Origin: a virus
Length of the DNA stretch: 52,003 bases
Strand: one strand, 5' to 3'
Virus record (IMG/VR): IMGVR_UViG_3300032163_000019
Coordinates: 1-52,003 of that record
In this document: positions 14,057 to 51,415 of the stretch, piece by piece
How positions within the stretch are numbered: the first letter of the stretch is position 1
Layout of the letters: each line of letters begins with the position of its first letter
Notes under the pieces: generated by a model
Database searches by the model: none
Told to the model about the DNA's origin: nothing
Seen by the model: only the letters and a program-made list of their open reading frames with translations
Made by a program: the position numbers and the translations under genes

Positions 14057-14075
14057 ACACTTTAAGGAGGAACAC

Positions 14076-23128: not shown

Positions 23129-23396
23129 AAAACACAGCGCATACGAGGCTTGCGCAAATACCGCTATAGGGTTTGGCGTATCATGGGCGTTGACCTTTTA
23201 TGTGTTGCCATACTATTTAGGCGTGAGCGCCACGAAACGCACGGCTACCATGATAGTGATAATTTATACTATCGCATCGATAGTCCGTTCGTATTTAATC
23301 CGGCGCGCATTTAACTATGTGAACGGCCCGGCGGAATCCGGGAGTAATAAAAATCAGGAGGAAAAAGATGAACGCAGAAAAAACGAACTCTGCTGA
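23118..23396 (+). CDS. DUF7220-like small membrane protein
   Basis: A 92-residue protein. I place the start at ATG 23118 (MQTKKHSAYEACANTAIGFG) because upstream in-frame codons belong to the Asp-tail gene. CANTAIGFGVSWALTFYVLP is characteristic of the phage DUF7220 family as I recall it. Two transmembrane helices fit residues about 10-33 and 41-61. The C-terminus (GPAESGSNKNQEEKDERRKN) is read through the hairpin element that precedes the next gene and looks like an add-on to the usual family ending. Confidence 0.65.
   Translation: MQTKKHSAYEACANTAIGFGVSWALTFYVLPYYLGVSATKRTATMIVIIYTIASIVRSYLIRRAFNYVNGPAESGSNKNQEEKDERRKNELC
23324..23360 (+). repeat. Cassette hairpin element, copy 1
   Basis: CCCGG-CGGAAT-CCGGG followed by AGTAATAAAAA and a ribosome binding site, before the beta-helix gene at 23368. 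It is translated as part of the previous gene's C-terminus. The same element recurs in the 32-36 kb region, 9 kb away. Confidence 0.8.
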
Positions 23397-24174
23397 ATTT
23401 GATTTCGGCGACGGGAAGGGTCAAGTCCCGGCCCACAAACACACTAATGGCGGAGGCTGGGTGGCCGATACCGCGTCCGTGGCCGACTCCGCATACGTCG
23501 GCCCGGATGCGCGGGTATTTGGCCGGGCGCGGATACGCGGGGAGGCCCGCGTGGATGGCCAATCGATAGTGAGCGAAAATGCCCGCGTGGGCGGCCAATC
23601 GATAGTGAGCGGAAATGCGCGGATAAGCGGGGAGGCCCGCGTGTATGGCCAATCGATAGTGAGCGGAAATGCCTGCGTGGATGGCCAATCGATAGTGAGC
23701 GGAAATGCCCGCGTGTATGGCCAATCGATAGTGAGCGGAAATGCTTGCGTGTATGGCCAATCGATAGTGAGCGGAAATGCCTGCGTGTATGGCCAATCGA
23801 TAGTGAGCGAAAATGCCCGCGTGGGCGGCCAATCGATAGTGAGCGAAAATGCACGGATAAGCGGGGCGGCCCGCGTGGGCGGCCAATCGATAGTGGGGGG
23901 AAATGCGTGGGTGGGCGGAAATGCGCGGATAAGCGGTAATGAAAATAAGGAGGAAACGTTGAACAAGAGAAAAAACATGAAAGAGGATAAAGAAGAGACG
24001 AAGGAATACATAACAGGGATAGAGGTGTTGTTGATAGCATGGCAAAACGCCAAAAAAGCAAGAGTAATGGCGCAAAATGCTCTAATCACCGCGGAAGCGG
24101 CCGCAAAAAAAGCATTTTGGCATGAGGTGGAGGCGGAAGGAAAGTGGAGGCGGGCAAACAACGATGCGGAGTGA
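23368..24174 (+). CDS. Hexapeptide-repeat (left-handed beta-helix) protein fused to an alanine-rich helical domain
   Basis: A 268-residue protein with AGGAGG before the ATG. Residues about 8-45 form the family module (EFDFGDGKGQVPAHKHTNGG, then GWVADTASVADSAYVGPDAR). Residues about 50-190 are hexapeptide repeats in 36-bp DNA units (ARVYGQSIVSGNA-like), expected to fold as a left-handed beta-helix. From about residue 191 the sequence NENKEETLNKRKNMKEDKEE corresponds to a degenerate cassette element read through. It is followed by a helical Ala-rich domain (WQNAKKARVMAQNALITAEA). The gene looks like two cassettes fused by loss of the stop codon. Function unknown. Confidence 0.75.
   Translation: MNAEKTNSAEFDFGDGKGQVPAHKHTNGGGWVADTASVADSAYVGPDARVFGRARIRGEARVDGQSIVSENARVGGQSIVSGNARISGEARVYGQSIVSGNACVDGQSIVSGNARVYGQSIVSGNACVYGQSIVSGNACVYGQSIVSENARVGGQSIVSENARISGAARVGGQSIVGGNAWVGGNARISGNENKEETLNKRKNMKEDKEETKEYITGIEVLLIAWQNAKKARVMAQNALITAEAAAKKAFWHEVEAEGKWRRANNDAE
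23550..23930 (+). repeat. 36-bp coding tandem repeats (hexapeptide)
   Basis: About ten near-identical units containing GGCCAATCGATAGTGAGCGG, alternating GTGTAT, GTGGAT and GTGGGC starts, encode pairs of hexapeptides. Units with the same DNA occur at 34391-34690. They are likely substrates for unequal recombination. Confidence 0.85.
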
Positions 24175-24218: not shown

Positions 24219-24959
24219 ATGAGTATATTCCACCTATTACATATTAGCGATTTACACGGCGTTAACCCGTTCCCGTTGGCGCAACCGCAGTGGGTACAGC
24301 ATACTATTATTACGGGGGATATGGCGGACAACGGCGATTTATCCGAATATGAAACGATAGCGCTTTGGTATAACGCGCAACCCGCGGGGTCTGTTTCGAT
24401 CCTCCCCGGCAACCATGATGTTTGTAAGGGCGGTAATATTTATGATGATAGATGCGTCATGCGATGGAAAAAAACGTTTGGCGATGATTTTTTTATGGGG
24501 AAGAAAATGCCGCTCACGAAAGGACTAAAAGACGAAGTATTATCACATGGCGGCTATCCCATACACATAGTACAACTAAATAGCGTAGCGATGACCGTAT
24601 CGCCGTTTGATTTTGCGCAGGGGGAAATTGGGACCGCTCAATTAAACGCCTTGGACGTCGCGTTGACTATGGCGCAAGACGCGGGGGCCTATATCATTTT
24701 AGCGCTACATCACCACCCGTTTATACACGGAGAGACAACTATGAGACTCATTGATAGTAGCAAGCTACTATCAATCGTCCACGGCCGCGTGAATTTAATG
24801 CTGTTTGGCCATCAACACATCGCGGATCATTGGGTTAATCGCTGGGGAATACCGCATATATTGGCGGCTCCCGGATTTAAAGACGAACGATGGGGATGGC
24901 GAATCGACGTCGATCTCATTAATCGCCGCGTACAAAATATACAGCCGACGTTTGTATGA
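24219..24959 (+). CDS. Calcineurin-like metallophosphoesterase
   Basis: A 246-residue protein. All metal-ligand blocks are present: HISDLHG (residues 7-13), TGDMADNGD (about 32), LPGNHDV (about 63), LALHHHPF (about 163) and LFGHQH (about 195). The layout resembles CpdA-type cyclic-nucleotide phosphodiesterases. I chose ATG 24219 since the motif starts at once. An ATG at 24189 with AAGGGG upstream would add ten residues. In a phage it might hydrolyse signalling nucleotides of host defence or act on nucleic-acid ends. Substrate unknown. Confidence 0.85.
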   Translation: MSIFHLLHISDLHGVNPFPLAQPQWVQHTIITGDMADNGDLSEYETIALWYNAQPAGSVSILPGNHDVCKGGNIYDDRCVMRWKKTFGDDFFMGKKMPLTKGLKDEVLSHGGYPIHIVQLNSVAMTVSPFDFAQGEIGTAQLNALDVALTMAQDAGAYIILALHHHPFIHGETTMRLIDSSKLLSIVHGRVNLMLFGHQHIADHWVNRWGIPHILAAPGFKDERWGWRIDVDLINRRVQNIQPTFV

Positions 24960-25768
24960 CAACGCGCGAAATAACCGAACGATCTAAAACACAATTAAAG
25001 CTACTCGATTTGTTTTCGGGTATCGGCGGATTCAGCCTGGGCATGGAACGCACAGGAGGTTTCCAGACCGTGGCGTTTTGCGAGCAAAGCCCGTTTTGCC
25101 GGGCGGTACTACAAAAGCATTGGCCAACCGTACCCATATATCCCGATATTAAAAACCTTACTTATGATGGACTTAAACGAAATGGTATATCAGCAGTTGA
25201 CATTATTACGGGAGGATTCCCCTGCCAAGACATTTCCCACGCCGGAAAGCAAGCGGGGATTATCCACGGGAAACGCAGTAGTTTATGGAACGAATACCTA
25301 CGCCTCATTGGCGATATACGACCGCAGTTCGCGGTTGTGGAAAATGTCCCAAACTTACTTACCGGAGATCGAGGAAGTTGGTTCGGCCGCCTTTTGGGGG
25401 ACTTGGCCGAAATCGGGTATGATGCGGAATGGCATTGTATATCCGCGTCGCAACTTGGGTATTACCACAAACGCAACCGTATCTGGATTGTGGCCTACCC
25501 CTGCGGCGAGCGACGGCAAAATATATTCACGCAAACTCAAATTAATAAGTTTTTGGAAGCATATAAAAAAGGGTACGCATTGTGCGCCATCCCTCCAATA
25601 CCTCGCATTAATGAGATATACCCCGATGGAATCAGTGGCGATATACGGTTCCATGATGGGGTTTCCGCGCGAGTGGCTCAATTTAAAGCGTTCGGAAACG
25701 CCATCATCCCCGATATCGCCGAACTGCTAGGGCGATTGATAATGAGCACGATTGATAATGCAAAGTAA
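24956..25768 (+). CDS. DNA cytosine-5 methyltransferase (Dcm-like)
   Basis: A 270-residue protein overlapping the previous stop through ATGA. Motif I is LLDLFSGIGGFS (about residue 16), motif IV with the catalytic Cys is GGFPCQDIS (about 86), motif VI is VENV (about 127), motif VIII is KRNRIW (about 172), and motif X is FKAFGNAIIP (about 243). It is short because the target-recognition region between VIII and IX is only about 55 residues. It should methylate C in a short palindrome, probably to block host restriction. A second long frame is nested inside it (25164-25730). Confidence 0.92.
   Translation: MTTREITERSKTQLKLLDLFSGIGGFSLGMERTGGFQTVAFCEQSPFCRAVLQKHWPTVPIYPDIKNLTYDGLKRNGISAVDIITGGFPCQDISHAGKQAGIIHGKRSSLWNEYLRLIGDIRPQFAVVENVPNLLTGDRGSWFGRLLGDLAEIGYDAEWHCISASQLGYYHKRNRIWIVAYPCGERRQNIFTQTQINKFLEAYKKGYALCAIPPIPRINEIYPDGISGDIRFHDGVSARVAQFKAFGNAIIPDIAELLGRLIMSTIDNAK
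25164..25730 (+). CDS. Nested ORF inside the cytosine methyltransferase gene
   Basis: An open frame of 188 codons lies entirely within the methyltransferase gene, in the +1 frame. Its product contains WPKSGMMRNGIVYP, SGLWPTPAASDGK, MMGFPREW and SETPSSP. I remember such motifs from proteins widely annotated beside C5 methyltransferases. Each motif coincides with a methyltransferase motif on the same DNA: DLAEIGYDAEW, WIVAYP and GNAIIP. It may therefore be a true overprinted gene or only the frame-shadow of conserved DNA. The ATG at 25164 has no ribosome binding site. Listed at low confidence. Confidence 0.3.
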   Translation: MMDLNEMVYQQLTLLREDSPAKTFPTPESKRGLSTGNAVVYGTNTYASLAIYDRSSRLWKMSQTYLPEIEEVGSAAFWGTWPKSGMMRNGIVYPRRNLGITTNATVSGLWPTPAASDGKIYSRKLKLISFWKHIKKGTHCAPSLQYLALMRYTPMESVAIYGSMMGFPREWLNLKRSETPSSPISPNC

Positions 25769-29086: not shown

Positions 29087-29861
29087 AAATGAAAATGAAA
29101 ATGAAAATGAAAATGAAAATGAAATGACGGAAGGCGAAAACAATAAACCGGTTTCCCCGCCTAAACGGGTAATAGCGAAACCGATTGAATACCGCCCAAA
29201 CGGAGCGCCTATATTTGCGCGTGACCCAGCGCGGCAAAACCGCGTCATTTGCGGCGCAAAAAAACACAAACAAAACGCTATTTGCCGCAGGTCCCCCGTT
29301 GTTGGCCGAGGCCGCTGTAAATTGCACGGGGGTAAAACATTGCAAGGAGCCGCGGTGCCGGGATACCGGCACGGGCGCCATAGCAAGTATCTCCCCGCCG
29401 GGTTGCTGGTAAAATATGACGTCGCGCAAAACGATCCCAACCTATTATCTTTGCGCGAAGAAATCGTTTTAGTGGACACGCGCTTAAACGATCTGCTCTC
29501 CAAACTACACATCGAGGGGGACGAACCGCTTTGGGGTAAGCTGGGTAAAGCGTGGGAAAACTTTACTTCCGCCACCACGGAGGATAAGGCCGCTTCGGCG
29601 AAAAACGACGTACAAAAAATTATTGATCTCGGTATTCAGGAGACGGGGACATGGCGAGAAATATATTCCGTGGTGGATCAACGCCGAAAACTGGTTGAAG
29701 GCGAAGTGAAACGCTTCCAGGTGATGGGGCAAATGATAACCGCCGAACGGTTAACGATGATCCTGGGTAAATTGGCGGAATCAATAAAAGCAAACGTCAC
29801 TGACCCGCGCCAAATGCGAACCGTTATTACCGATATTACGAATATTATTACCGGTAAATAA
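29076..29861 (+). CDS. Putative small terminase subunit
   Basis: A 261-residue protein directly upstream of the large terminase gene (1-nt overlap). ATG 29076 is preferred since GGAGGG lies about 9 nt upstream. ATG 29070 is too close. The N-terminus is seven Glu-Asn repeats (GAAAAT tandem). A Cys/His cluster CRRSPVVGRGRCKLHGGK, followed by GYRHGRHSKYLP, resembles proteins adjacent to phage terminase genes, possibly a zinc-bearing DNA-binding part. The rest is helical. Small terminases recognise phage DNA. The assignment rests mostly on synteny. Confidence 0.6.
   Translation: MENENENENENENENEMTEGENNKPVSPPKRVIAKPIEYRPNGAPIFARDPARQNRVICGAKKHKQNAICRRSPVVGRGRCKLHGGKTLQGAAVPGYRHGRHSKYLPAGLLVKYDVAQNDPNLLSLREEIVLVDTRLNDLLSKLHIEGDEPLWGKLGKAWENFTSATTEDKAASAKNDVQKIIDLGIQETGTWREIYSVVDQRRKLVEGEVKRFQVMGQMITAERLTMILGKLAESIKANVTDPRQMRTVITDITNIITGK
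29079..29120 (+). repeat. 6-bp tandem repeat GAAAAT encoding (EN)7
   Basis: Seven exact units begin at codon 2 of the putative small terminase gene. The A-rich repeat follows the ribosome binding site and could also affect translation initiation. Confidence 0.9.
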
Positions 29862-31249
29862 TGGAACTCCTTATCGCGAATGACCCGGAAACGCTGGAAC
29901 AACGCGCGTTAAAACAATTCCTCCGCGATTTGGATACGACGCGAATCGATGACAATTTCCATACGTGGCTAAAAACCGTCACGCCATACTGGCATTGGGA
30001 TTGGGATCATCAAATATATCTGTATCCGTATCTGGAGAAAGTCGTTTCCGGCGATATCAAACGATTGATTATTTCGATGCCGCCGCGCCACGGGAAAACA
30101 GAAATGATAACCGTCCGCCTACCCATCTATCTCCTCGAAAGGTGGCCGTATAAAAAAGTTATACTAGGGGCGTACAACCAAACCGTCGCTAACAATTTTT
30201 CGCGCAAAAGTTTGAAGGTGGCGAAAAACCGGTTGAACCTTAGCCGCGATAAGCAGGCCGCCAGCGAATGGGAAACGGCGGAAAACGGCGGATACAGAGC
30301 CGTGGGCGTCGGTTCCGGAATTACCGGGTTTGGCGGAGACCTCATTTTAATTGACGATCCCGTCAAAAATATCGAAGAAGCTCGAAGCAGGCTGTACCAG
30401 GAAAAAACGTTCGACTGGTATAAAAACGATTTAGCCACGCGCCTAGAGCCCGACGGACGGATGATAATAATTATGACCCGCTGGAGTGACGGCGATCTCG
30501 CCGGACGAATTATGGCGAGCGAGGAAGGCCCCGATTTTACGGTGATAAATTTACCGGCATTAGCGGAAACAAACGATCCGTTAGGGCGCGTCGAGGGAAC
30601 GGCGCTTTGTCCCGCTCGATATGACGCCACTGATTTATGGCTTTTAAAACGACGGATGGGGCAAGATTTTTATGCGTTGTACCAAGGGTCTCCCGTCGCG
30701 GCGGAGGGAGCCATGTTCAAGGCGGACTGGTGGAATTACTATAAAGAGCTCCCGGATAAAACGCTGTGGAAGCGGCGGATCGTCTCCATGGATACCGCAT
30801 TTAAAACGGGGAAGGCGTCCGATTATACCGCCATTATTTGCGCCATAGAAACTACAAACGGTAAAATTTATATAACTAATGTCATCCGCGAAAAACTGGA
30901 ATTCCCGGAATTAAAACGAAGGCTGACTTCCATCATCCAGGAATTCCCCGTGGACGCATTGTTGATCGAAGACAAAGCGTCCGGGCAAAGCCTCGTCCAG
31001 GAGTTACAACGCGGTACGGGCCTTCCCGTTTTGCCCATCAAAGTTTCCGCCGATAAAATTAGCAGAGCGGCGGCCGCGGCGCCAACAATTGAAGCCGGTA
31101 ATATTTATATTAAAGACGGAGCCGATTGGGTGGCGGAATTTATTTTCGAGTTATCCAGATTTCCGGCGGGGGCGCATGACGATCAAACCGACGCTCTCAC
31201 GCAACTAATCAACTGGGTTCGAGGCGGATCGGGAGATATGATATGGTAG
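29861..31249 (+). CDS. Terminase large subunit
   Basis: A 462-residue protein. The ATPase has Walker A PPRHGKTE (about residue 72), Walker B LILIDDP (about 160) and coupling motif MTRWS (about 204). The nuclease half shows SMDTAFKTGKASDYT (first Asp, about 310), IEDKASG (about 370) and a final HDDQTDAL (about 448). It cuts and pumps phage DNA into the procapsid. It lies far from the portal gene (7.7 kb), with an accessory block inserted between them, which is unusual since these genes are normally adjacent. Confidence 0.96.
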   Translation: MELLIANDPETLEQRALKQFLRDLDTTRIDDNFHTWLKTVTPYWHWDWDHQIYLYPYLEKVVSGDIKRLIISMPPRHGKTEMITVRLPIYLLERWPYKKVILGAYNQTVANNFSRKSLKVAKNRLNLSRDKQAASEWETAENGGYRAVGVGSGITGFGGDLILIDDPVKNIEEARSRLYQEKTFDWYKNDLATRLEPDGRMIIIMTRWSDGDLAGRIMASEEGPDFTVINLPALAETNDPLGRVEGTALCPARYDATDLWLLKRRMGQDFYALYQGSPVAAEGAMFKADWWNYYKELPDKTLWKRRIVSMDTAFKTGKASDYTAIICAIETTNGKIYITNVIREKLEFPELKRRLTSIIQEFPVDALLIEDKASGQSLVQELQRGTGLPVLPIKVSADKISRAAAAAPTIEAGNIYIKDGADWVAEFIFELSRFPAGAHDDQTDALTQLINWVRGGSGDMIW

Positions 31250-31298: not shown

Positions 31299-31595
31299 AT
31301 GGATAGTACGATGAATTACGTTTCCCCGGTTCCTATTCCACCAGGAGAAACGCTTAAAGATGTTTTGGCGGAAAAGAGGATGACCCAGACCGACCTGGCC
31401 ATGCGGATGGGCCGCCCGATAAAGACCATCAATGGCGTCATCAAGGGAGACACGCCGATCACCGCCACAACCGCCGTTCAACTGGAATACGCCTTAAACG
31501 TCCCTGCGTATTTCTGGTTGAACCTGGAATCGGCGTACCAGACGGCGCGGGCGCTCTACCTCCCCCCCCCTCCCATAGGATGCGTACCAATATAA
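31299..31595 (+). CDS. HigA/VapI-family antitoxin-like HTH protein
   Basis: A 98-residue protein with GGAG 7 nt before the ATG. IPPGETLKDVLAEKRMTQTD, then LAMRMGRPIKTINGVIKGDT and LNVPAYFWLNLESAYQ, is the full signature of the XRE-type antidote HigA. No HigB-like toxin precedes or follows, so it is an orphan. It may act as a repressor of the accessory region or neutralise a host toxin. An inverted repeat fitting an operator lies 45 nt downstream, before the first accessory gene. The C-terminus ends in a Pro run (LPPPPIG) encoded by a C10-like tract. Confidence 0.88.
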   Translation: MDSTMNYVSPVPIPPGETLKDVLAEKRMTQTDLAMRMGRPIKTINGVIKGDTPITATTAVQLEYALNVPAYFWLNLESAYQTARALYLPPPPIGCVPI

Positions 31596-31627
31596 TAGAT
31601 TGCAATATCCATGCCGGTCAAATAGCG

Positions 31628-31687
31628 TAACGTTTCGGCTTAACGTTTCGTTCGATGTTTTAACATTTTAGCGCATCGAAACGTTAA
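31628..31687. promoter_or_regulatory. Candidate operator: repeated TTAACGTTTCG
   Basis: TAACGTTTCG (31628-31637) and TTAACGTTTCG (31640-31650) are direct copies, and CGAAACGTTAA (31677-31687) is the exact inverse. The region between HigA and the first accessory gene is A/T-rich and about 200 nt long. HTH proteins such as HigA bind such dyads, so autoregulation or control of the accessory genes is plausible. Confidence 0.55.
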
Positions 31688-31802
31688 AATATTAGCCGCC
31701 CATAAACATAACCCTTTGATTTTATTGCAGTTTTACTTTGGTACGCGGTATGCAATATTAAGGATTGTACGGCGGAATCAAACAAAAGAATGGGAGGGAA
31801 AA

Positions 31803-32069
31803 ATGAAAATGAAAATGACCTGCAGAACCAATAGCACCGGCAAGGTAACCCTCGCATACGCTACTGTGGACGGCCGCGTCGAGAGGAGTTTTTTTACTCC
31901 ACGAAACGGCGGCTACATCTGGGAGGAATTCCTTGGCCGTCCGGGAACGTTAGGCCAGCAGGTGGGTCCCCGGCTGGGGCATAGCGGCAATATGTTATCA
32001 TGTTCCCGGATCGAAAATCTCGCCGTTGTAATTCGCCGAGAATATCGCGCGCTAAGGAGGGGAAAATGA
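31803..32069 (+). CDS. Hypothetical accessory protein
   Basis: An 88-residue protein. The ATG at 31803 has GGGAGGG 3-9 nt upstream. The further upstream frame is noncoding. It begins MKMKMTCRTNSTGKVTLAYA and has beta-strand character, ending in a basic helix (AVVIRREYRALRRGK). It overlaps the next gene by ATGA. No family recognised. It opens the accessory region. Confidence 0.6.
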   Translation: MKMKMTCRTNSTGKVTLAYATVDGRVERSFFTPRNGGYIWEEFLGRPGTLGQQVGPRLGHSGNMLSCSRIENLAVVIRREYRALRRGK

Positions 32070-32302
32070 ACACAAAAAACCTGTTGATAGCCACTATCGC
32101 GGCCAGCCATCCGGAAGGAGGGCGCGTCAAAATCGTATGCCAGCGGGATGGAGACCGGCTCCGCTGGTACGGGGTGGAGGGCGCCGATCTCCAGGATACC
32201 GAGGTATCCGTGGCATTGGCCGCTGGAATCGAAGCCGCCAAGCTGGCTTGCCACGCGGCGTGGGGCGCACCCTGCTGGGAATTGCGGCCAAACTGGAGAT
32301 AA
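32066..32302 (+). CDS. Hypothetical accessory protein
   Basis: A 78-residue protein beginning MNTKNLLIATIAASHPEGGR. AAGGAGGGG is upstream, inside the previous gene. The C-terminal half is an Ala-rich helix (EVSVALAAGIEAAKLACHAA). Codon choice (GCC, CTC, CTG) is richer in G+C than in the core phage genes. Unassigned. Confidence 0.55.
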   Translation: MNTKNLLIATIAASHPEGGRVKIVCQRDGDRLRWYGVEGADLQDTEVSVALAAGIEAAKLACHAAWGAPCWELRPNWR

Positions 32303-32316
32303 TCAGGGCAAGTTGC

Positions 32317-32350
32317 CCACCCGGCCCGGCGATTTCCGGGAGTAATAAAA
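32317..32350 (+). repeat. Cassette hairpin element, copy 2
   Basis: CCCGG-CGATTT-CCGGG and AGTAATAAAAAACAT, placed between the stop at 32302 and the ribosome binding site of the gene at 32371. Confidence 0.8.
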
Positions 32351-32370
32351 AACATAAAGAGGAGGAGGAT

Positions 32371-32628
32371 ATGGACACGACGACGAAAACGAACCGCGCC
32401 TATATAACGCGGGGACTGGGCAACGGTACTGTCTTTGACCAGCGCGTTTTTGGAACGCATAAAAACGCCGTGACGTATGTCGCCCATGTGCGGGCGGAAA
32501 CATGCCAATGCAATAGCGTGGTGGAGGGGCCGGATAGCATCGGCTGCCAACACGTGGGAGTGCACGCTCTGGTTTTCACGTCAAAAATATCCCGGAAACG
32601 GGGCGTGATTTTTGCGGGCGCGTTTTGA
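32371..32628 (+). CDS. Hypothetical accessory protein
   Basis: An 85-residue protein with GAGGAGGA upstream of ATG. Residues include TCQCNSVVEGPDSIGCQHVG (Cys/His pattern C-x-C...C-x-H), which may bind metal. The C-terminus is basic and hydrophobic (SKISRKRGVIFAGAF). Preceded by the hairpin element. Unassigned. Confidence 0.6.
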   Translation: MDTTTKTNRAYITRGLGNGTVFDQRVFGTHKNAVTYVAHVRAETCQCNSVVEGPDSIGCQHVGVHALVFTSKISRKRGVIFAGAF

Positions 32629-32696
32629 TTAAAACTATGAAAAGCGGGGAAAAAACATGTTAGACAAAAAACACAGTCTAAAAGGAAGGGAAAATC

Positions 32697-33158
32697 ATGG
32701 GATGGGAATCGATCACCGCAACATGCGGCCACAGATATAATGAGCAGATGTACGGGCCGCATAAAGGCCGGGATAGCCGGGTGAAGTGGCTCTCCGAGCG
32801 GATATGCCCTGACTGCCTGGCGGCGGAGCGGGCCAGTGAGGCCGCTAAAGCAGGCGAGCGGGCAAAATCGTCCGGCCTGCCGGCCCTCACCGGCTCCCCA
32901 AAACAAATCGTTTGGGCGGAGCAGATCCGCCAGACGGCCCTCCCGCGGATCGCCGAAGCCCTGGCCCAGGCGCGAAGCAGAATCAAAGCCGGACTCAATG
33001 CGGAGCAGGCCACGCGGGCGGACCGCTACTTGGAGATAATCGAGGGTATGGGCGGTAACGCCTCCGCCGTCTGGTGGATCGATCACCGCAATTACCTCCA
33101 GTCCGCCACGATCCAAGCGGACGCCCAAGCCGCCCTCAAAACGGAGCTGGGGTTATGA
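32697..33158 (+). CDS. Zinc-binding hypothetical protein
   Basis: A 153-residue protein. CGHRYNEQ near residue 10 and ICPDCLAAERA near residue 37 form a CxH...CxxC zinc site. SGLPALTGSPKQIVWAEQIR is a pattern seen in phage and plasmid proteins of unknown role. The middle is an Ala/Arg-rich helix (RIAEALAQARSRIKAGLNAE). AAGGAAGGG precedes the ATG. G+C is clearly higher than in the core genes, which suggests recent acquisition. Upstream, 32656-32690 carries a remnant similar to the start of the gene at 33723. Confidence 0.65.
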   Translation: MGWESITATCGHRYNEQMYGPHKGRDSRVKWLSERICPDCLAAERASEAAKAGERAKSSGLPALTGSPKQIVWAEQIRQTALPRIAEALAQARSRIKAGLNAEQATRADRYLEIIEGMGGNASAVWWIDHRNYLQSATIQADAQAALKTELGL

Positions 33159-33213
33159 AGGGCATCCACACTACAAAAACACAAACAGGAACTGAAAAAC
33201 AAGGAGAAAAACC

Positions 33214-33411
33214 GTGGACACGGCAATAGATTGGGCGGCCTGGACGGCGGCCAAGGCGTTGAGGTTGAGGCGGGCGGCGGAACGGGCGGCGGGATCGGCG
33301 GCGGAGGCGATGGCGAGGGCGGAGCAGGCGGAACGGGCGGCGGAACGGGCGGCGGCCAGGGCGCGAGGGGAAATCGTGGACTGGGATTATTGGCAAAACG
33401 AGGAGGACTAG
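33214..33411 (+). CDS. Alanine-rich helical protein, family member
   Basis: A 65-residue protein with a GTG start, AAGGAG 6 nt upstream. MDTAIDWAAWTAAKALRLRR and ERAAGSAAEAMARAEQAER form one long amphipathic Ala/Arg/Glu helix that ends in acidic IVDWDYWQNEED. It belongs to the Ala-rich paralogous group of this region (33415, 33723, 35306, 35556, 37164). Composition, not alignment, supports the grouping. Confidence 0.6.
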   Translation: MDTAIDWAAWTAAKALRLRRAAERAAGSAAEAMARAEQAERAAERAAARARGEIVDWDYWQNEED

Positions 33412-33414
33412 ATT

Positions 33415-33657
33415 ATGGCCGACGATGATGAGGATACTAACTACAACGATAAGCTGAGTGTTTTGGACGACGCGGAAACAGCCTTTGCTACGGCCCTGGC
33501 CGCGGCGGAATTAGCGAACGCCCAGGAAGCGCCGCGTGAAATACAAATAGGACTGTGGCGAAACGCCCGCCAAGCCAGGAAACTGGCGGAGGATGCGGCA
33601 TGGAGTTGTTTTTTGGATGTGGAAAAAGCCGCGGGCCGATGCAACAACGGGCGGTAA
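33415..33657 (+). CDS. Alanine-rich helical protein, family member
   Basis: An 80-residue protein; AGGAGG about 8 nt before ATG and 3 nt after the previous stop. The acidic start (MADDDEDTNYNDKLSVLDDA) leads into an Ala-rich helix (ETAFATALAAAELANAQEAP, RNARQARKLAEDAAW). The W-containing AEDAAW motif recurs in other members. The hairpin element follows its stop by about 6 nt. Confidence 0.6.
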   Translation: MADDDEDTNYNDKLSVLDDAETAFATALAAAELANAQEAPREIQIGLWRNARQARKLAEDAAWSCFLDVEKAAGRCNNGR

Positions 33658-33662
33658 TCGCT

Positions 33663-33699
33663 ACCCGGCCCGGCGGAAACCGGGAGTAATAAAAAACAT
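33663..33699 (+). repeat. Cassette hairpin element, copy 3
   Basis: CCCGG-CGGAAA-CCGGG and AGTAATAAAAAACATGAAAA, between the stop at 33657 and the gene at 33723. The most canonical copy. Confidence 0.85.
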
Positions 33700-33722
33700 G
33701 AAAAGGAAAAGTGAGGAAGAAA

Positions 33723-33959
33723 GTGTTAGACAAAGAACACAACCTAAAAATGCTAAATAAAGCGGCATACGACGCGGAGGACGCCGCGGAAGACGCCAGA
33801 TTAGCCGCGGAAGACGCACTTGACAAACTAAACCTGGCCAGGGCCACGTGGGAGGAAGCGGACCAAGCCTCGTGGGTGGCGGAGCGCGCCGCATGGGCCG
33901 CCAGAATGGGAGTGGAAAAAGCGGAAGACGCGGCTGAGGACGGCGAAAACCGAGAGTAA
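33723..33959 (+). CDS. Alanine-rich helical protein, family member
   Basis: A 78-residue protein. I place the start at GTG 33723, 5-8 nt after GAGGA. A GTG four codons earlier is possible. The sequence reads MLDKEHNLKMLNKAAYDAED, AAEDARLAAEDALDKL and ERAAWAARMGVEKAEDAAED, a long repeat of AAxDA/AAW heptads. The stop TAA lies inside a degenerate hairpin element and overlaps the next ATG by one base. Confidence 0.65.
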   Translation: MLDKEHNLKMLNKAAYDAEDAAEDARLAAEDALDKLNLARATWEEADQASWVAERAAWAARMGVEKAEDAAEDGENRE

Positions 33960-33972
33960 TGAAAAACATGAA
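33940..33972 (+). repeat. Degenerate cassette hairpin element, copy 4
   Basis: GACGGCGAAAACCGAGAGTAATGAAAAACATG keeps the order of the element (CGGCGAAAACCGAGAGTAAT), but the stem is weakened. It supplies the stop of the gene ending at 33959 and the start of the next. Confidence 0.6.
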
Positions 33973-34201
33973 AAAGAAAATAATAGTGGGAATTACCCCC
34001 GCCACCCCCACCGCTTGCTCTTGGTTAGGGTGGAAGGATGATTGCGTCATGGAGGATGATCGACGGGGTTCATATTGCCTGGCGTTTGGGGTCAGGCTGA
34101 AAAGGGAACGGGGCAAAACCTCCCGCCTCGCGGAGTGCGTCAAGGCGGAAACCGGGAGTAATAAAAATCATAAAAACAAGGAGGAAAACGATGGACACTG
34201 A
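33959..34201 (+). CDS. Hypothetical accessory protein, C-terminus read through a cassette element
   Basis: An 80-residue protein beginning MKNMKKKIIVGITPATPTAC. The core (residues about 18-60) is unrelated to the Ala-rich family and contains three Cys. The ending AETGSNKNHKNKEENDGH is the translation of the next hairpin element and ribosome binding site, and the stop lies 11 nt inside the following gene. It may be a small gene that lost its original stop. Confidence 0.5.
   Translation: MKNMKKKIIVGITPATPTACSWLGWKDDCVMEDDRRGSYCLAFGVRLKRERGKTSRLAECVKAETGSNKNHKNKEENDGH
34142..34178 (+). repeat. Degenerate cassette hairpin element, copy 5
   Basis: AAGGCGGAAACCGGGAGTAATAAAAATCAT; the left stem arm is changed while loop, right arm and tail are kept. 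It precedes the beta-helix gene at 34191. Confidence 0.7.
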
Positions 34202-34733
34202 GTTTGATTTCGACGACGGGAAGGGTCCTATCCCGGCTCACAAACATTCCAACGGAGGAGGCTGGGTTGCGGACACCGCGTCCGTGGCCGACACAGCGCA
34301 CGTCGGCCCGGATGCCTGGGTAAGCGAAAATGCCTGGGTGGGCGATAATGCCCGCGTGACGGAAAATGCCCGCGTGGGCGGAACTGCCCGCGTGTATGGC
34401 CAATCGATAGTGAGCGGAAATGCCTGGGTGGGCGATAATGCCCGCGTGACGGAAAATGCCCGCGTGGGCGGAAATGCCTGGGTAAGCGAAAATGCCTGGG
34501 TGACGGAAAATGCCCGCGTGGGCGGAAATGCCTGGGTAAGCGAAAATGCCTGGGTGACGGAAAATGCCTGGGTGGGCGATAATGCCCGCGTGAGCGGAAA
34601 TGCCCGCGTGTATGGCCAGTCGATAGTGAGCGGAAATGCCCGCGTGTATGGCCAGTCGATAGTGAGCGGAAATGCGCGGATAAGCGGGGAGGCCCGCGTG
34701 TATGGAGATATGGAGGAAACGGGACGATTATGA
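34191..34733 (+). CDS. Hexapeptide-repeat (left-handed beta-helix) protein
   Basis: A 180-residue protein with AAGGAGG upstream. The N-terminal module (EFDFDDGKGPIPAHKHSNGG, GWVADTASVADTAHVGPDAW) is nearly the same as in the genes at 23368, 35975 and 36802. The remainder is hexapeptide repeats (VSENAWVGDNARVTENARVG). Some DNA blocks with GTGTATGGCCAATCGATAGT are identical to the gene at 23368. It ends before GGAGGGGG of the next gene. LbH folds occur in acyltransferases and carbonic anhydrases, but no active-site residue is visible, so it is probably a structural or binding scaffold. Confidence 0.75.
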   Translation: MDTEFDFDDGKGPIPAHKHSNGGGWVADTASVADTAHVGPDAWVSENAWVGDNARVTENARVGGTARVYGQSIVSGNAWVGDNARVTENARVGGNAWVSENAWVTENARVGGNAWVSENAWVTENAWVGDNARVSGNARVYGQSIVSGNARVYGQSIVSGNARISGEARVYGDMEETGRL

Positions 34734-34755
34734 ACGGGGAGGAGGGGGAACGCGC

Positions 34756-35019
34756 ATGAAAAAAAGAACGGTAATAAAAATCATTACGGCGAGACAACGA
34801 CTCATCTGGAACATGGCGTGTGAAAAAGCCGAACACGCTATGCAAGAACTCCAAAAACTAATGACTATTATACACTGGGGAACTCGGCGTAAAATAATCA
34901 TCAGACCCCTGGGCCGAACGATTATTGATGATTTTTTGGAACGCGATCTCGCGCGGGACGATAATTATGCGGCCCTGTTCGCATTTATGATCCGCCAAAA
35001 CAGAGTTACAAGGGGATAA
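34756..35019 (+). CDS. Small basic hypothetical protein
   Basis: An 87-residue protein with GGAGGGGG about 7 nt before the ATG. MKKRTVIKIITARQRLIWNM, then a helical segment and RRKIIIRPLGRTIIDDFLER, give a strongly basic protein. No family recognised. It is 2 nt ahead of the next gene. Confidence 0.6.
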   Translation: MKKRTVIKIITARQRLIWNMACEKAEHAMQELQKLMTIIHWGTRRKIIIRPLGRTIIDDFLERDLARDDNYAALFAFMIRQNRVTRG

Positions 35020-35021
35020 TT

Positions 35022-35237
35022 ATGTTTATGTATCACCAACACAGGGCGCTCTCCAGTAGAGTGCTCGCCGTACAATTATTGCATCCAGACGGGTATTGGA
35101 CGGCGTACATCGACGCCGTCGAAGGGCTTAATCACCGCGTCGAGGCCCACGAAGTAGCCAGGACGGGTACAAAACTTTCCATGACATTGGCTTGCGTGGT
35201 GTTCCCCGGTTTTGATCGGTCACTTTACCAAGGGTAA
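35022..35237 (+). CDS. Small hypothetical protein
   Basis: A 71-residue protein, AAGGGG before the ATG. MFMYHQHRALSSRVLAVQLL and WTAYIDAVEGLNHRVEAHEV suggest a small alpha/beta fold. The next hairpin element begins about 13 nt after its stop. Unassigned. Confidence 0.6.
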   Translation: MFMYHQHRALSSRVLAVQLLHPDGYWTAYIDAVEGLNHRVEAHEVARTGTKLSMTLACVVFPGFDRSLYQG

Positions 35238-35250
35238 ATAAACGGTACAG

Positions 35251-35284
35251 CCCGGCCCAGCGGAAACCGGGAGTAATAAAAACC
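35251..35284 (+). repeat. Cassette hairpin element, copy 6
   Basis: CCCGGCCCAG-CGGAAA-CCGGG and AGTAATAAAAACCATGAAAA; the stem has one A-C mismatch. It precedes the gene at 35306. Confidence 0.75.
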
Positions 35285-35305
35285 ATGAAAACAAGGAGGA
35301 AAACG

Positions 35306-35503
35306 ATGGACACGAAGATTAAGATAAGTAAAGAAAAAATATTAGCGGCGCTAAACGACGCTCGCATGGCATATCGCGTGGCCAAGAGTGCCGCGGAAGC
35401 GGCGAAACAAGCGGCTTGGGAGGCGGAGGACGCTGCGTGGAAGGCGGAGGTAACAGTTTGGGAACAGGAGCGAACGCTCCTGGGAGCGGAGCGAAAATTA
35501 TGA
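35306..35503 (+). CDS. Alanine-rich helical protein, family member
   Basis: A 65-residue protein; AAGGAGG 7 nt upstream of ATG 35306. MDTKIKISKEKILAALNDAR, then VAKSAAEAAKQAAWEAED and AAWKAEVTVWEQER form one helix with AAW(E/K)AE repeats. A hairpin-like sequence GAGCGAACGCTCC lies near its end. It belongs to the Ala-rich group. Confidence 0.65.
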   Translation: MDTKIKISKEKILAALNDARMAYRVAKSAAEAAKQAAWEAEDAAWKAEVTVWEQERTLLGAERKL

Positions 35504-35510
35504 TAACGAC

Positions 35511-35540
35511 GGCCCGGCGATATCCGGGAGTAATAAAAAT
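35511..35540 (+). repeat. Cassette hairpin element, copy 7
   Basis: CCCGG-CGATAT-CCGGG and AGTAATAAAAAT, 8 nt after the stop of the gene at 35306 and directly before GGAGG of the next. Confidence 0.85.
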
Positions 35541-35555
35541 ATGGAGGACGGAAAA

Positions 35556-35903
35556 ATGGAAATGAAACAGATAGTGCTGAACGCCATGGGCTGGCCCCAA
35601 TATGAGGGCACCCTGAACCTCTATCGAGCGGCGGCGGATAACCTCGACGCCGCGAATAGCGCATGTGGCGGATATCACCGGGTGGAGGCGGAGGAGGCGA
35701 AGGAGGCATACGATGACGTGGCGCGAGTGGCCAAGCTTTTCCCCGGCGCGGCGGCTTATGCGCAGGCAAGATCATTCCGCGCCGCCGCGAATGCGCTTAG
35801 ATCAGCGGCTGGGTTGCGGGCCATGGAGCGGATCGAGGCCGGAGAAGACCCAGCTTTGGTGGTAGTGGAGATGAAAAGGGAGTGGAGGGCGGCGGCGGAA
35901 TAG
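35556..35903 (+). CDS. Alanine-rich hypothetical protein
   Basis: A 115-residue protein; ATG 35556 has GGAGG 8 nt upstream. MEMKQIVLNAMGWPQYEGTL is followed by helices rich in Ala (NLDAANSACGGYHRVEAEEA, RAAANALRSAAGLRAMERIE). It is more complex than the short Ala-rich proteins and may have a defined helical-bundle fold. High G+C. Element copy 8 follows. Confidence 0.6.
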   Translation: MEMKQIVLNAMGWPQYEGTLNLYRAAADNLDAANSACGGYHRVEAEEAKEAYDDVARVAKLFPGAAAYAQARSFRAAANALRSAAGLRAMERIEAGEDPALVVVEMKREWRAAAE

Positions 35904-35916
35904 GGGCGGTAACGCC

Positions 35917-35954
35917 CACCCGGCCCGGCGGATTCCGGGAGTAAGAAAAAACAT
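35917..35954 (+). repeat. Cassette hairpin element, copy 8
   Basis: CCCGG-CGGATT-CCGGG and AGTAAGAAAAAACATGAAAA, between the stop at 35903 and the beta-helix gene at 35975. Confidence 0.85.
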
Positions 35955-35974
35955 GAAAACAAGGAGGAAAAACC

Positions 35975-36490
35975 ATGAACACAGTTGAGTTTGATTTCGA
36001 GGACGGAAATGGGCCCGTCCCGGCCCACAGACACTGCAATGGCGGAGGCTGGGTGGCCGACTCCGCGTCCGTGGCCGCTACCGCATACGTCGGCCCGGAG
36101 GCTCGCGTCTACGGGAGGGCGGTAGTGCGCGATCACGCGAGCGTGGACGATCACGCGATCGTGTGCGATCAGGCGCTCGTGTGCGATCAGGTGCTCGTGT
36201 GCGATCAGGCGCTCGTGGGCGATCACGCGATCGTGCGCGGAAATGCGATCGTGGGCGGTCAGGCGCTCGTGCGCGAAAATGCGATCGTGTGCGATCAGGC
36301 GATCGTGGGCGATCACGCGATCGTGTGCGATCAGGCGGTAGTGCGCGATCACGCGATCGTGGGCGATCAGGCGCTCGTGTGCGATCAGGCGATCATGCGC
36401 GGCCGCGCGGTAGTAGGCGGGGACTCGCAATTGAGCGAGTGGGATATAGCCGGCGGCAACCACCCCTCGATCATGGGAGAAAATAAATGA
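35975..36490 (+). CDS. Hexapeptide-repeat (left-handed beta-helix) protein
   Basis: A 171-residue protein with AAGGAGG upstream. The N-terminal module is conserved (EFDFEDGNGPVPAHRHCNGG, GWVADSASVAATAYVGPEAR). The repeats differ from the other members: DHAIVCDQALVCDQ-type hexads, coded by 18-bp units with CGATCACGCGATCGTG. The stretch 36127-36410 contains about 20 GATC sites. The end (GGDSQLSEWDIAGGNHPSIM) is non-repetitive. Predicted fold is a left-handed beta-helix. Role unknown. Confidence 0.72.
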   Translation: MNTVEFDFEDGNGPVPAHRHCNGGGWVADSASVAATAYVGPEARVYGRAVVRDHASVDDHAIVCDQALVCDQVLVCDQALVGDHAIVRGNAIVGGQALVRENAIVCDQAIVGDHAIVCDQAVVRDHAIVGDQALVCDQAIMRGRAVVGGDSQLSEWDIAGGNHPSIMGENK

Positions 36491-36678
36491 TATCGCCGGA
36501 GCCGGTTTGCAATGGCGGCGCCCGCCCCTTGGGGACGTGGCTGAAAAGCGACGGCGCTTGCGGCCATCGTGAAAGCGGGCCGGTTCCGGTGATTTATAAA
36601 AAGGAAGACCGGCTGGCCGCCCTCTCACGCCGGTTTTCTTTGCGGGCCGGGCGGGTCCTCACCGTCCGGCCTTTTTAA
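36487..36678 (+). CDS. Small hypothetical protein ending in a terminator
   Basis: A 63-residue frame overlapping the previous stop (ATGA), with GGGAG nearby. MISPEPVCNGGARPLGTWLK, later SRRFSLRAGRVLTVRPF. The last codons form an intrinsic terminator (36647-36676), and the stop is within its T-run. It may be a real short gene or just terminator-proximal sequence. Low confidence. Confidence 0.35.
   Translation: MISPEPVCNGGARPLGTWLKSDGACGHRESGPVPVIYKKEDRLAALSRRFSLRAGRVLTVRPF
36647..36676 (+). terminator. Rho-independent terminator inside the accessory region
   Basis: Stem CCGGGCGG / CCGTCCGG (one G-U pair), 7-nt loop, then CCTTTTT. It should end transcription of the cassettes upstream. Genes after it would then need their own promoter or read-through. 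Confidence 0.7.
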
Positions 36679-36693
36679 CCGCAAAGGATCGGT

Positions 36694-36780
36694 ATGAAAA
36701 TCATAATTATCAGGATCAAATGTAGCGCCAAAGATTGGCGCCGGGCGTGGCTGGCCGCCGTGGCCCGGCTGAACAACTAA
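36694..36780 (+). CDS. Very small basic protein
   Basis: A 28-residue frame, AAAGGA 5 nt before ATG: MKIIIIRIKCSAKDWRRAWL, then AAVARLNN. It ends exactly before the AACAAGGAGG of the next gene. Basic and partly hydrophobic. It resembles a leader peptide or an amphipathic small protein. Confidence 0.4.
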   Translation: MKIIIIRIKCSAKDWRRAWLAAVARLNN

Positions 36781-36801
36781 AACAAGGAGGAAAAACTATC
36801 T

Positions 36802-37122
36802 ATGAACACAACTGAATTTGATTTCAAGGATGGGCAAGGCCCAGTCCCGGCTCACAAACATCCCAGAGGGGGTGGGTGGGTAGCCAATACTGCATATGTG
36901 GCCGATACTGTGTATATCGGACCAGATGCGCGTGTTTTCGACAAGGCATTTGTATGCGGAAATGCGCGGATAAGCGGGGAGGCCCGCGTGTGCGGCCAAG
37001 CGGTAGTGAGCGGATATGCAATCGTGCTTGGGACTGCAATCGTTGGTGGGACCGCGGAAGTTGCTGAGAATGCCCGCGTGGGCGAAGACACCCGCATAGG
37101 CGACGGGAGGGTCATAGAATAG
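36802..37122 (+). CDS. Hexapeptide-repeat (left-handed beta-helix) protein, short
   Basis: A 106-residue member of the family with the same N-terminal module (EFDFKDGQGPVPAHKHPRGG, GWVANTAYVADTVYIGPDAR). It has only about eight hexapeptide turns and lacks the nearly identical tandem units of the others, so it may be the ancestral or least amplified form. DNA AATGCGCGGATAAGCGGGGA is shared with the genes at 23368 and 34191. AAGGAGG lies about 11 nt before the ATG. Confidence 0.72.
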   Translation: MNTTEFDFKDGQGPVPAHKHPRGGGWVANTAYVADTVYIGPDARVFDKAFVCGNARISGEARVCGQAVVSGYAIVLGTAIVGGTAEVAENARVGEDTRIGDGRVIE

Positions 37123-37163
37123 ACTATAACCACAAGTAAGAAAAATAAGAAAAAGGAAAAAGA

Positions 37164-37610
37164 ATGCCGGAAACTAGTACCTCGCTCGACGAGCGCTTGC
37201 GGCGCGCGAAAGAAAACGTTGTGGCAACAACGCACGCGGCCAGCGTCGCCAAGGAAACATTGATCCACTTAATGCGCGAAACGCAAAAAAAATACTGGAA
37301 GCTAAGGCTGGACGCAGGTTCAGCGTTCGCGGAAAAAAGTTACGAAGCGGCGCACGCGGCCATCGTCGCGCAAAAAATGGGGGAAAAGGATTGGGCGGCC
37401 GCGGAAGACGCCGCGCGTCAAGCGGCGTGGGATTTTGCGGAGGCCAAAGAAGAAGCTTGGTTAGCGATGGAAAAAGAAACGCTACAAATAGTTTGGGACA
37501 CGTGGGAAACAAACCACGAAACGGCAACCGCGCAAAACCATGACGACTCAGCCTACTGGCGCGACGCGGAAATCGAAAACAGGAAAACCGATGAACAAAA
37601 TGACAGATGA
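37164..37610 (+). CDS. Alanine-rich helical protein, long family member
   Basis: A 148-residue protein with AAAAGGAAAAAG before ATG. It reads MPETSTSLDERLRRAKENVV, followed by Ala/Glu-rich helices (YEAAHAAIVAQKMGEKDW, EDAARQAAWDFAEAKEEAW). It is the longest member of the Ala-rich group and probably a coiled coil throughout. A degenerate element tail (AAGTAAGAAAAATAAG) precedes it. The stop overlaps the next ATG. Confidence 0.65.
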   Translation: MPETSTSLDERLRRAKENVVATTHAASVAKETLIHLMRETQKKYWKLRLDAGSAFAEKSYEAAHAAIVAQKMGEKDWAAAEDAARQAAWDFAEAKEEAWLAMEKETLQIVWDTWETNHETATAQNHDDSAYWRDAEIENRKTDEQNDR

Positions 37611-37882
37611 TCGTTATGACAAACAGGAGTGATAAAAATAAGGAGGAGGGGAATACGGAGGCTTCATCTGTCGAGTCGGGAATAAAGGGGACAGCCTATG
37701 ATGAGCTTCGCGCCTTCGTTCTCTCCCTGACGGCGATCCAGTCTACAAGTATGATTGCCACTTGGATGGAGGAAATAGCCAGTAGCGAAAAAAAAGGACT
37801 GCATCTAAAATTTGAACACGGACACATTGTGTCCGAACCGGAAAACATAACGCATAACACAAACGAAAGGAACGTAAAATGA
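37607..37882 (+). CDS. Hypothetical accessory protein
   Basis: A 91-residue protein beginning MIVMTNRSDKNKEEGNTEAS. The RSDKNKEE segment is the translation of a degenerate cassette element (AGGAGTGATAAAAATAAGGAGG), so the true start could lie downstream. Then follows a helical core (YDELRAFVLSLTAIQSTSMI). ATGA overlaps on both sides. Unassigned. Confidence 0.5.
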   Translation: MIVMTNRSDKNKEEGNTEASSVESGIKGTAYDELRAFVLSLTAIQSTSMIATWMEEIASSEKKGLHLKFEHGHIVSEPENITHNTNERNVK

Positions 37883-38211
37883 AAACAGTATTATTTTTTC
37901 AAGGCGCCGTGGCGGGATTCCGGACGTGGCTGGAACGGAGCCGCGTCGTCGCGACGTTTGATATTCCTGGAGATTTTGAATGTCATTTTAGACACGCGGG
38001 TCCTTGCCCATTTCTGAAATGTGGGTCAAATATTAACGGGGGAAGATGTGTTATATTCAAGGAGGTAATTTTAATACCGCAAGACGTTAGCTCTGAAGAC
38101 GAGGACGCGGATGATGAAGATTACATCAATACATGGTACGCAAAAGACGCCCGATGTTCCCGCGCATTCGGATTACGCGGGGCCCAGGTTTTTTTGTCGG
38201 TAAAAAAATAA
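37879..38211 (+). CDS. Hypothetical Cys-containing protein
   Basis: A 110-residue protein, AAAGGA before ATG. FECHFRHAGPCPFLKCGSNI provides three Cys and His, perhaps a zinc site. An acidic stretch follows (SSEDEDADDEDY). It is the last gene before the 700-nt control region. No family recognised. Confidence 0.6.
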   Translation: MKTVLFFQGAVAGFRTWLERSRVVATFDIPGDFECHFRHAGPCPFLKCGSNINGGRCVIFKEVILIPQDVSSEDEDADDEDYINTWYAKDARCSRAFGLRGAQVFLSVKK

Positions 38212-38909: not shown

Positions 38910-38939
38910 TTGACAACGAAATCGAAATTCGGCAATAAT
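38910..38939 (+). promoter_or_regulatory. Candidate late promoter at the portal gene start
   Basis: TTGACA (38910-38915), 18-bp spacer, AATAAT (38934-38939). It overlaps the 5' end of the portal frame, so transcripts starting near 38946 would not carry the TTG at 38910. Confidence 0.45.
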
Positions 38940-40376
38940 GCGGAAAGTATAAATTTAAACTTATTATGGGTGGGTAAAATCAGCTTGTCTCGATATTGGC
39001 CGTTCGCCACTTCCAAAAGCGCTCCCCCCGTCGCCGTATCGTTCGACGCTAAAATCGCCGCGGCGATTATATCCCCCTGGCAAGAATCAAAACCGCTCTA
39101 CCGCATAAACGATCTGCAAGGCCAGGTCAACGCATATAGCAAATGGGTTTACCGTTGCGTCCAGGTTATCGCCGACGCGGCGTGTAGCGTTCCTTTTCGT
39201 TTGTTCACCGTGCAAACAAATTCTAACCAGGTTAAAGGTTTTCGACACAAGGTTGTCGAAAAGAAAAAGCTGGATTGGATGGAGGCGAATAACCCAGCGG
39301 TTAGAAATGCTATACGCAAAGCAAGCGGCGTGATGGTGGAGGTCCAGGACCATCCGTATTTTGAGCTTATGAGGACGGTTAACCCGTTCATGAATAATAT
39401 CGATATTCAAAAAACCAAGTTCATATCCGATCGGTTAACTGGGAATTCTTACTGGTACAAGGTCAAGGACAAGGCCGGGCGTATAGTTGAGCTATGGCCG
39501 TTGGCGCCGCAGAACATGGCGGTTATACCGTCGAGCAAGAATTTTATTGATGGGTACGAATACCGGAATGGCGGCAAGAAAATTAGGTTTGAGGAGCATG
39601 AGATAATCCATTTCAAGGACCCGTCTCCGTTTGATCCATATTACGGCATGTCCCCTTTGGCGGCCGCGGTGACTCCGGTAACGCTTCAGGCGTATATGGA
39701 TAAATTTAATACCGACTTGTTCGCCAACATGGCGCGGCCAGAGGTTATACTATCGAGTGAGAATACTCTTACCGATGACATGGTGACGAAGATCAAGACG
39801 CGGTGGAAAGAGTTTACGGGGTTTGCGCAAGGCAGGAGCGGAGACGTCGTGGTGATGGGTAGCGGGTTGAGGATTGAACGGTTGACGATGAATCCGCAAG
39901 AATTGAGTTACAATGAATCGGCGGTCATGCGGCGGAATGAGATATTCGGGATTTTTGGAGTGCCATTGACGAAGGCGGACCCATCGCAGATAGCGGCCAA
40001 CAATGAGGCGAGCGATATTCAGTTTTTGCGAGACACGGTATATCCGTTGTTGGTTCGTGACCAGGAAAAGCTCAACGAAAAGTTGCTATCGGAATATGAT
40101 GACAGGTTGTTCGGCGCGTATGATGATCCCATTCCCGCTAACCGTCAGTTTGAAATGACGCGGAACATTGAGTACGTTAAGGCGGGGATTAAAACGCGGA
40201 ATGAGGTGCGGGTAGAAGAGGGATTGGAGCCGTTACCGCCGAGTGAGGGGGATGTTATACCGCCGTTTCAAGGGGCGGGTATACCGGGGGTGGCCCCCAA
40301 TATATCGTCCGCGGCAGGTGTGAAAGATATTGCGGAAGGAGTAAGGAAAGCGTTGTATGGGCGGTATATCCGATGA
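38910..40376 (+). CDS. Portal protein (HK97-type)
   Basis: Up to 488 residues. Portal hallmarks include NAYSKWVYRCVQVIADAACS near the start, NSYWYKVKDKAGRIVELWPL, the EEHEIIHFKDPSPFDPYYGM block, and ILSSENTLTDDMVTKI, RNEIFGIFGVP near the end of the core. It forms the dodecameric DNA gate of the head. The start is unclear: TTG 38910 coincides with a -35 hexamer, there is no in-frame ATG in the first 100 codons, and GTG 38970 has no ribosome binding site. The core domain begins about residue 50 in any case. Confidence 0.93.
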   Translation: MTTKSKFGNNAESINLNLLWVGKISLSRYWPFATSKSAPPVAVSFDAKIAAAIISPWQESKPLYRINDLQGQVNAYSKWVYRCVQVIADAACSVPFRLFTVQTNSNQVKGFRHKVVEKKKLDWMEANNPAVRNAIRKASGVMVEVQDHPYFELMRTVNPFMNNIDIQKTKFISDRLTGNSYWYKVKDKAGRIVELWPLAPQNMAVIPSSKNFIDGYEYRNGGKKIRFEEHEIIHFKDPSPFDPYYGMSPLAAAVTPVTLQAYMDKFNTDLFANMARPEVILSSENTLTDDMVTKIKTRWKEFTGFAQGRSGDVVVMGSGLRIERLTMNPQELSYNESAVMRRNEIFGIFGVPLTKADPSQIAANNEASDIQFLRDTVYPLLVRDQEKLNEKLLSEYDDRLFGAYDDPIPANRQFEMTRNIEYVKAGIKTRNEVRVEEGLEPLPPSEGDVIPPFQGAGIPGVAPNISSAAGVKDIAEGVRKALYGRYIR

Positions 40377-51400: not shown

Positions 51401-51415
51401 CAGGAGGTATTAACT

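Follow-up and report, generated by a model that had tools for sequence, protein, structure and literature searches.

What is a short inverted repeat doing ahead of several unrelated small genes of one phage genome? The window analyzed here is the whole of a 52,003-base IMG/VR record of a tailed phage, with tape-measure, helicase, primase, DNA polymerase, terminase, portal and capsid genes, in which a sequence-only reading had described an array of small-gene cassettes marked by a conserved hairpin element. We searched the record by pattern and profile and identified the consensus CCCGG-CGRWWW-CCGGG-AGTAATAAAAA in eight copies, seven of them strong and one degenerate, which all lie on the + strand. 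The chance expectation was 0.01 copies and no shuffle reached seven, so the claim that the same sequence recurs between genes was borne out. The sites were those originally listed, although the positions had been placed 2-8 bases too early; exact stem starts are 23327, 32325, 33669, 35256, 35513 and 35924. The copies are as follows:

23324..23353, + strand: element copy 1, CGG plus stem, loop CGGAAT and tail; before the beta-solenoid gene at 23368
32322..32351, + strand: element copy 2, loop CGATTT; before the gene at 32371
33666..33695, + strand: element copy 3, loop CGGAAA; before the Ala-rich gene starting at 33711/33725
33931..33983, + strand: degenerate copy, profile search E 1e-5; provides the start region of the gene at 33959/33968
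34138..34167, + strand: element copy 4, 5' arm CAAGG; within the 3' end of ORF 33968-34201 and before the beta-solenoid gene at 34191
35253..35282, + strand: element copy 5, near arm CCCAG with a spare CCCGG; before the gene at 35306 (or 35285)
35510..35539, + strand: element copy 6, loop CGATAT; before the gene at 35556 (or 35541)
35921..35950, + strand: element copy 7, loop CGGATT, tail TAAGAAAAA; before the beta-solenoid gene at 35975

The proposed CCCGG/CCGGG stem was present in most copies but not at 35256, where the near arm is CCCAG, nor at 34141, where the 3' arm and tail are perfect and the 5' arm is CAAGG. An intact CCCGG 5 bases upstream (35251-35255) could pair in place of the altered arm at 35256. 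Each arm motif is frequent in the genome by itself (66 occurrences of CCCGG and 60 of CCGGG), while the inverted pair CCCGG-N(3-12)-CCGGG is confined to these elements genome-wide. The loop, earlier described as six varying bases, does vary, but the changing part is four A/T-biased bases (RWWW) behind a constant CG; 9 of 28 cells were variable in RWWW, and 4 of 161 in the rest of the 27-bp core. As the seven copies are related to one another, the p-value of this contrast is only indicative. Conservation reaches beyond the core, with gaps, as far as the ribosome site and the start context ATG-GACAC, and the whole leader of ~65 bp consists of the GC dyad, the A-rich tail, the ribosome site and this start context. 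All seven of the ribosome-site-linked [AG]TG[GA]ACAC starts of the 52-kb genome fall within the array, and three of these genes are without the hairpin. An in-frame ribosome-site-like stretch inside the 23368 ORF (~23937-23975) was missed by the profile search and was therefore not counted as a copy. As separate observations, CCGG is under-represented in the genome (259 versus 357 expected) though contained in the element, and a C5 cytosine methylase gene (24956-25765) lies near the 23-kb element.

The repeat is restricted to accessory genes: 8 of the ~71 predicted genes bear it and none of them is a core gene. Six strong copies and the degenerate copy lie between the terminase and portal genes, and one strong copy lies at 23327. 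The proteins encoded downstream comprise three beta-solenoids (PHROG 5070/7964, Pfam B_solenoid_ydck), Ala-rich helical small ORFs and one unrelated small ORF. The genes concerned and the flanks of the array are:

29861..31249, + strand: terminase large subunit, left flank of the array
38910..40376, + strand: portal protein, right flank of the array
23368..24174, + strand: beta-solenoid protein (PHROG 5070/7964) with an Ala-rich helical tail joined on in frame
32371..32628, + strand: small ORF with MDT start, behind element copy 2
33725..33959, + strand: Ala-rich helical small ORF, behind element copy 3
34191..34733, + strand: beta-solenoid protein with MDT start, behind element copy 4
35306..35503, + strand: Ala-rich helical small ORF with MDT start, behind element copy 5
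35556..35903, + strand: Ala-rich small ORF, behind element copy 6
35975..36490, + strand: beta-solenoid protein with MNT start, behind element copy 7
36802..37122, + strand: beta-solenoid paralogue that keeps the leader's ribosome site and start context, hairpin part absent

All seven strong copies end 25-40 bases upstream of the start codon. The stem starts 9-22 bases past the preceding stop in five cases; the preceding reading frame extends across the element at 23327 and 34141, and the degenerate copy (33945) provides the stop codon of the upstream gene. We also noted that the beta-solenoid genes (23368-24174, 34191-34733, 35975-36490 and 36802-37122) contain 18-base (6-residue) repeats, very different in number between paralogues. 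An HTH gene of the antitoxin-like XRE type (31299-31595) has a C run near its end (~31562-31571), and the intergenic stretch behind it (region 31299-31690) carries AACGTTTCG/CGAAACGTT repeats and may be a control region of the array. Elsewhere in the record, 13096-14849 encodes homologues of cyanophage Pam3 gp32, gp33 and gp34. The record start (1-309) recurs, partly diverged, near the end (51086-52003), with a 99-base stretch repeated 819 bases apart; permuted ends and an assembly overlap are possible readings of this terminal repetition.

The constant stem with its changing loop had been taken to suggest a selected structure. The sequence pattern held, but it does not prove such a structure. 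A predicted hairpin forms in most copies, and the folding check that had been proposed turned out negative, with fold energies no better than those of shuffles (z -0.67 to +0.47). No covarying stem pairs were detected in the seven sequences, whose small number and close similarity leave a structure possible, and one strong copy is without its 5' arm. Modeled ribosome-site openness, for which some starts are approximate, was 0.70 for element genes, 0.46 for other genes and 0.65 for array genes without the element. Breaking the 3' arm in the model, where several start positions are again approximate, changed ribosome-site access little. An insulator hairpin was rejected because element-free array genes are open in the model too and the 3'-arm mutation has little effect. 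Selection on an RNA hairpin was thus not demonstrated, and the focus of variation on four A/T-biased positions fits an RNA loop and, just as well, the middle of a DNA dyad like that of the cluster O phages.

A search of related phages with the consensus had been recommended, and it revealed no second genome with the element in IMG/VR, GTDB or the GenBank phages. The exact element had no match in other IMG/VR contigs, and the 16-base tail gave only chance matches there, without the stem. The GTDB genomes yielded one lone match, next to a terminator in a Clostridiales MAG; being an isolated single copy in that genome, it was treated as chance. Close relatives were not found in IMG/VR by terminase, portal or DNA polymerase, there was no DNA match among GenBank phages, and no Rfam family exceeded its gathering score. 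Since no relative with the element was found, we examined other phages with the same beta-solenoid family, comparing 78 such loci pairwise. Several of these phages have their own, different repeated leaders ahead of solenoid and unrelated genes, and some of those leaders have sigma-70-like promoters and terminators. A 150-kb phage contig (L032/L049) has 12 exact copies of a terminator-promoter-leader composite with CATGTAAGCGATAG, which precedes solenoid and other genes and is PeSL-like (see below). When the L050/L054 group was compared with L092, the two were 99% identical on both flanks of a 1,227-bp difference. This block spans essentially two solenoid genes, and both of its break points lie inside a 28-bp repeated leader, ATGAATGAAGGAGTGAATGAAATGCTAC, of which the copies at the break points are:

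L092, 8279-8306: 28-bp leader
L054, 9978-10005: 28-bp leader
L054, 11233-11260: 28-bp leader

L096 (92-95% identity) has the same short form as L092. The comparison is direct evidence of cassette-like turnover via leader-to-leader recombination in the L050/L054/L092 phages. Their leader is unrelated in sequence to the present element and the difference may represent a single event; we infer that similar turnover would extend to the element of this phage.

Within the window, the leaders at 34141 and 35256 match at 57 of 65 bases with no gap. The genes behind them match at background level (0.48; background median 0.45), and the gene behind 34141 is related instead to the genes at 23368 and 35975 (0.66 and 0.68, respectively). 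Leader kinship and gene kinship therefore disagree, indicating that leader and gene histories differ. The overrun of upstream genes at 23327 and 34141 and the stop at 33945 fit the footprints expected from recombination at the leader. The overrun at copy 1 is no proof of insertion, because the DUF7220 gene before it varies in C-terminal length among relatives anyway. Some copies may also have come along with duplicated genes, as the three beta-solenoid genes could have done. The suggestion that each element plus ORF behaves like a module was thus supported by the discordant kinship and by the parallel case in other phages, but not in the sense of an integron-like site-specific system.

We favor, with a probability of about 0.6, the reading that the element is a phage-specific start-associated repeat, a leader copied ahead of unrelated accessory genes that probably acts as a passive break point and, less surely, may have a regulatory role. 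Leaders and genes would have spread by duplication and ordinary homologous recombination between leader copies, and the leader would offer a passive break point at which small genes are gained, lost or fused. Recombination of this sort is documented for comparable published repeats (PMC4351075), and cassette shuffling is likely for this element. The dyad and the A-rich tail might also regulate these genes, most plausibly at the mRNA leader through translation start or through transcript end or processing, with a DNA operator as the main alternative to such a role.

An operator or silencer would mean that the CCCGG-N6-CCGGG dyad is bound by a dimeric regulator of phage or host, which switches the accessory genes together, and that the start context is incidental; the L5 stoperators and a proposal for the ESAS repeats are precedents. 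The perfect dyad of 5-bp arms around a variable, A/T-rich centre, like the cluster O repeats, and the XRE-type HTH regulator gene (31299-31595) directly before the array argue for this reading. However, the tail AGTAATAAAAA is invariant on one side only, all copies point the same way and keep within a narrow range of distances from the start codon, and no site was demonstrated in the DNA upstream of the HTH gene. Also against an operator, no sigma-70-like promoter was called at any array copy, other promoter types being outside this prediction. The idea of a promoter for a phage RNA polymerase was rejected, as no PF00940 match was obtained, but this was a weak test as the control likewise gave none. 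We regard the operator as a tentative alternative with a modest chance of being correct. About the same modest chance goes to plain tandem duplication, in which an ancestral unit of leader and gene was duplicated, the genes diverged past recognition and the element persists as a conserved relic, unconnected with shuffling. Paralogy is evident or possible for the four beta-solenoid genes and for several Ala-rich ORFs, as this would predict, but at least three apparently unrelated protein types stand behind the element, copies overrun upstream genes, and the reading is already weakened by the disagreement between leader and gene kinship.

We consider it unlikely that the element is a dual-purpose cassette border, combining an RNA hairpin or processing site, which would hand any incoming small gene a leader for independent expression, with a recombination site for accessory-gene swaps among phages with beta-solenoid arrays. 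A GC hairpin between genes could be a terminator, or a leader common to every gene of the host group, which had been named as the simple alternative to cassettes. This is very improbable: no intrinsic terminator was called at any array copy and neither strand has a T-run behind the hairpin, and the element is not a general leader because only 8 of ~71 predicted genes have it; it is also absent from other IMG/VR contigs, with a single isolated match in GTDB. An integron-like system, in which a recombinase recognizes the hairpin, would account for short inverted repeats at the borders of one-gene modules. Such a system is unsupported, and in our view exceedingly improbable, because no element-specific recombinase was recognized among the proteins searched (small ORFs being partly covered) and no relative with the element was found; by eye, there was no insertion-site duplication either.

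The sequence-only reading knew of no phage element of this form, which proved wrong, since cluster K, cluster O, the Microbacterium clusters EC/EF/EG and the T4-type PeSLs offer close parallels. The SAS/ESAS of cluster K mycobacteriophages are phage-specific oriented repeats before unrelated non-structural genes, rare or absent outside the cluster, with an upstream inverted repeat at about half of the SAS (PMC3203893, PMC11373665). At 3-7 bp from the start, the SAS coincides in part with the ribosome site itself; the ESAS contains a 17-bp imperfect repeat plus a SigA-like promoter and was read later as a promoter plus inverted repeat (PMC3203893, PMC11373665). Like SAS/ESAS, the element is a repeated, oriented motif just upstream of the starts of several unrelated genes; unlike them, its 5-bp dyad lies 25-40 bases from the start and it has no sigma-70-like promoter. 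The 13-bp GGGATAGGAGCCC at the cluster K ribosome site is not this element, which has another sequence and lies upstream of the ribosome site. Cluster O mycobacteriophages have a 17-bp inverted repeat, TGTTCGG-NNN-CCGAACA, in >30 copies with documented indels between them (PMC4351075). Invariant arms, a variable A/T-rich centre and copies between genes are common to both, whereas the cluster O repeat has no clear orientation, lies inside genes in about one third of cases and has no constant one-sided tail (PMC4351075). Among Microbacterium phages, cluster EC has an 18-bp motif (Quhwah) that precedes the ribosome site and stands 21-30 bp ahead of the start, and cluster EG has GATCAACC-NN-GGTTGATC at 14-22 bp (PMC7302621). 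We confirmed four exact EC motifs before annotated genes in a small-gene array of Quhwah between terminase and portal, the same placement as here; the EC and EG sequences are unrelated to the element, and that of EC is non-palindromic.

PeSL cassettes of T4-type phages and HGTV-1 are described as stem-loops between small accessory genes, combining an early promoter with a terminator, for which modular shuffling has been proposed (Arbiol 2010, Comeau 2014, as cited in PMC4503421 and PMC3950731). Unlike PeSLs as summarized there, the copies in the array have no recognizable sigma-70-like promoter or intrinsic terminator, and gain or loss of modules of that type was observed here solely at another leader, that of phages sharing the gene family. 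Start-associated repeats are now linked to beta-solenoid (PHROG 5070/7964) gene arrays, which are widespread but unstudied. In other beta-solenoid phages two genes have been gained or lost precisely from leader to leader, which makes the shuffling idea testable in many phages. Although its sequence is new, the element is of a type of gene-start repeat that several phage groups are known to have, and this phage adds an apparently independent lineage to the actinobacterial phages, T4-types and haloarchaeal virus that carry genome-specific start-associated repeats.
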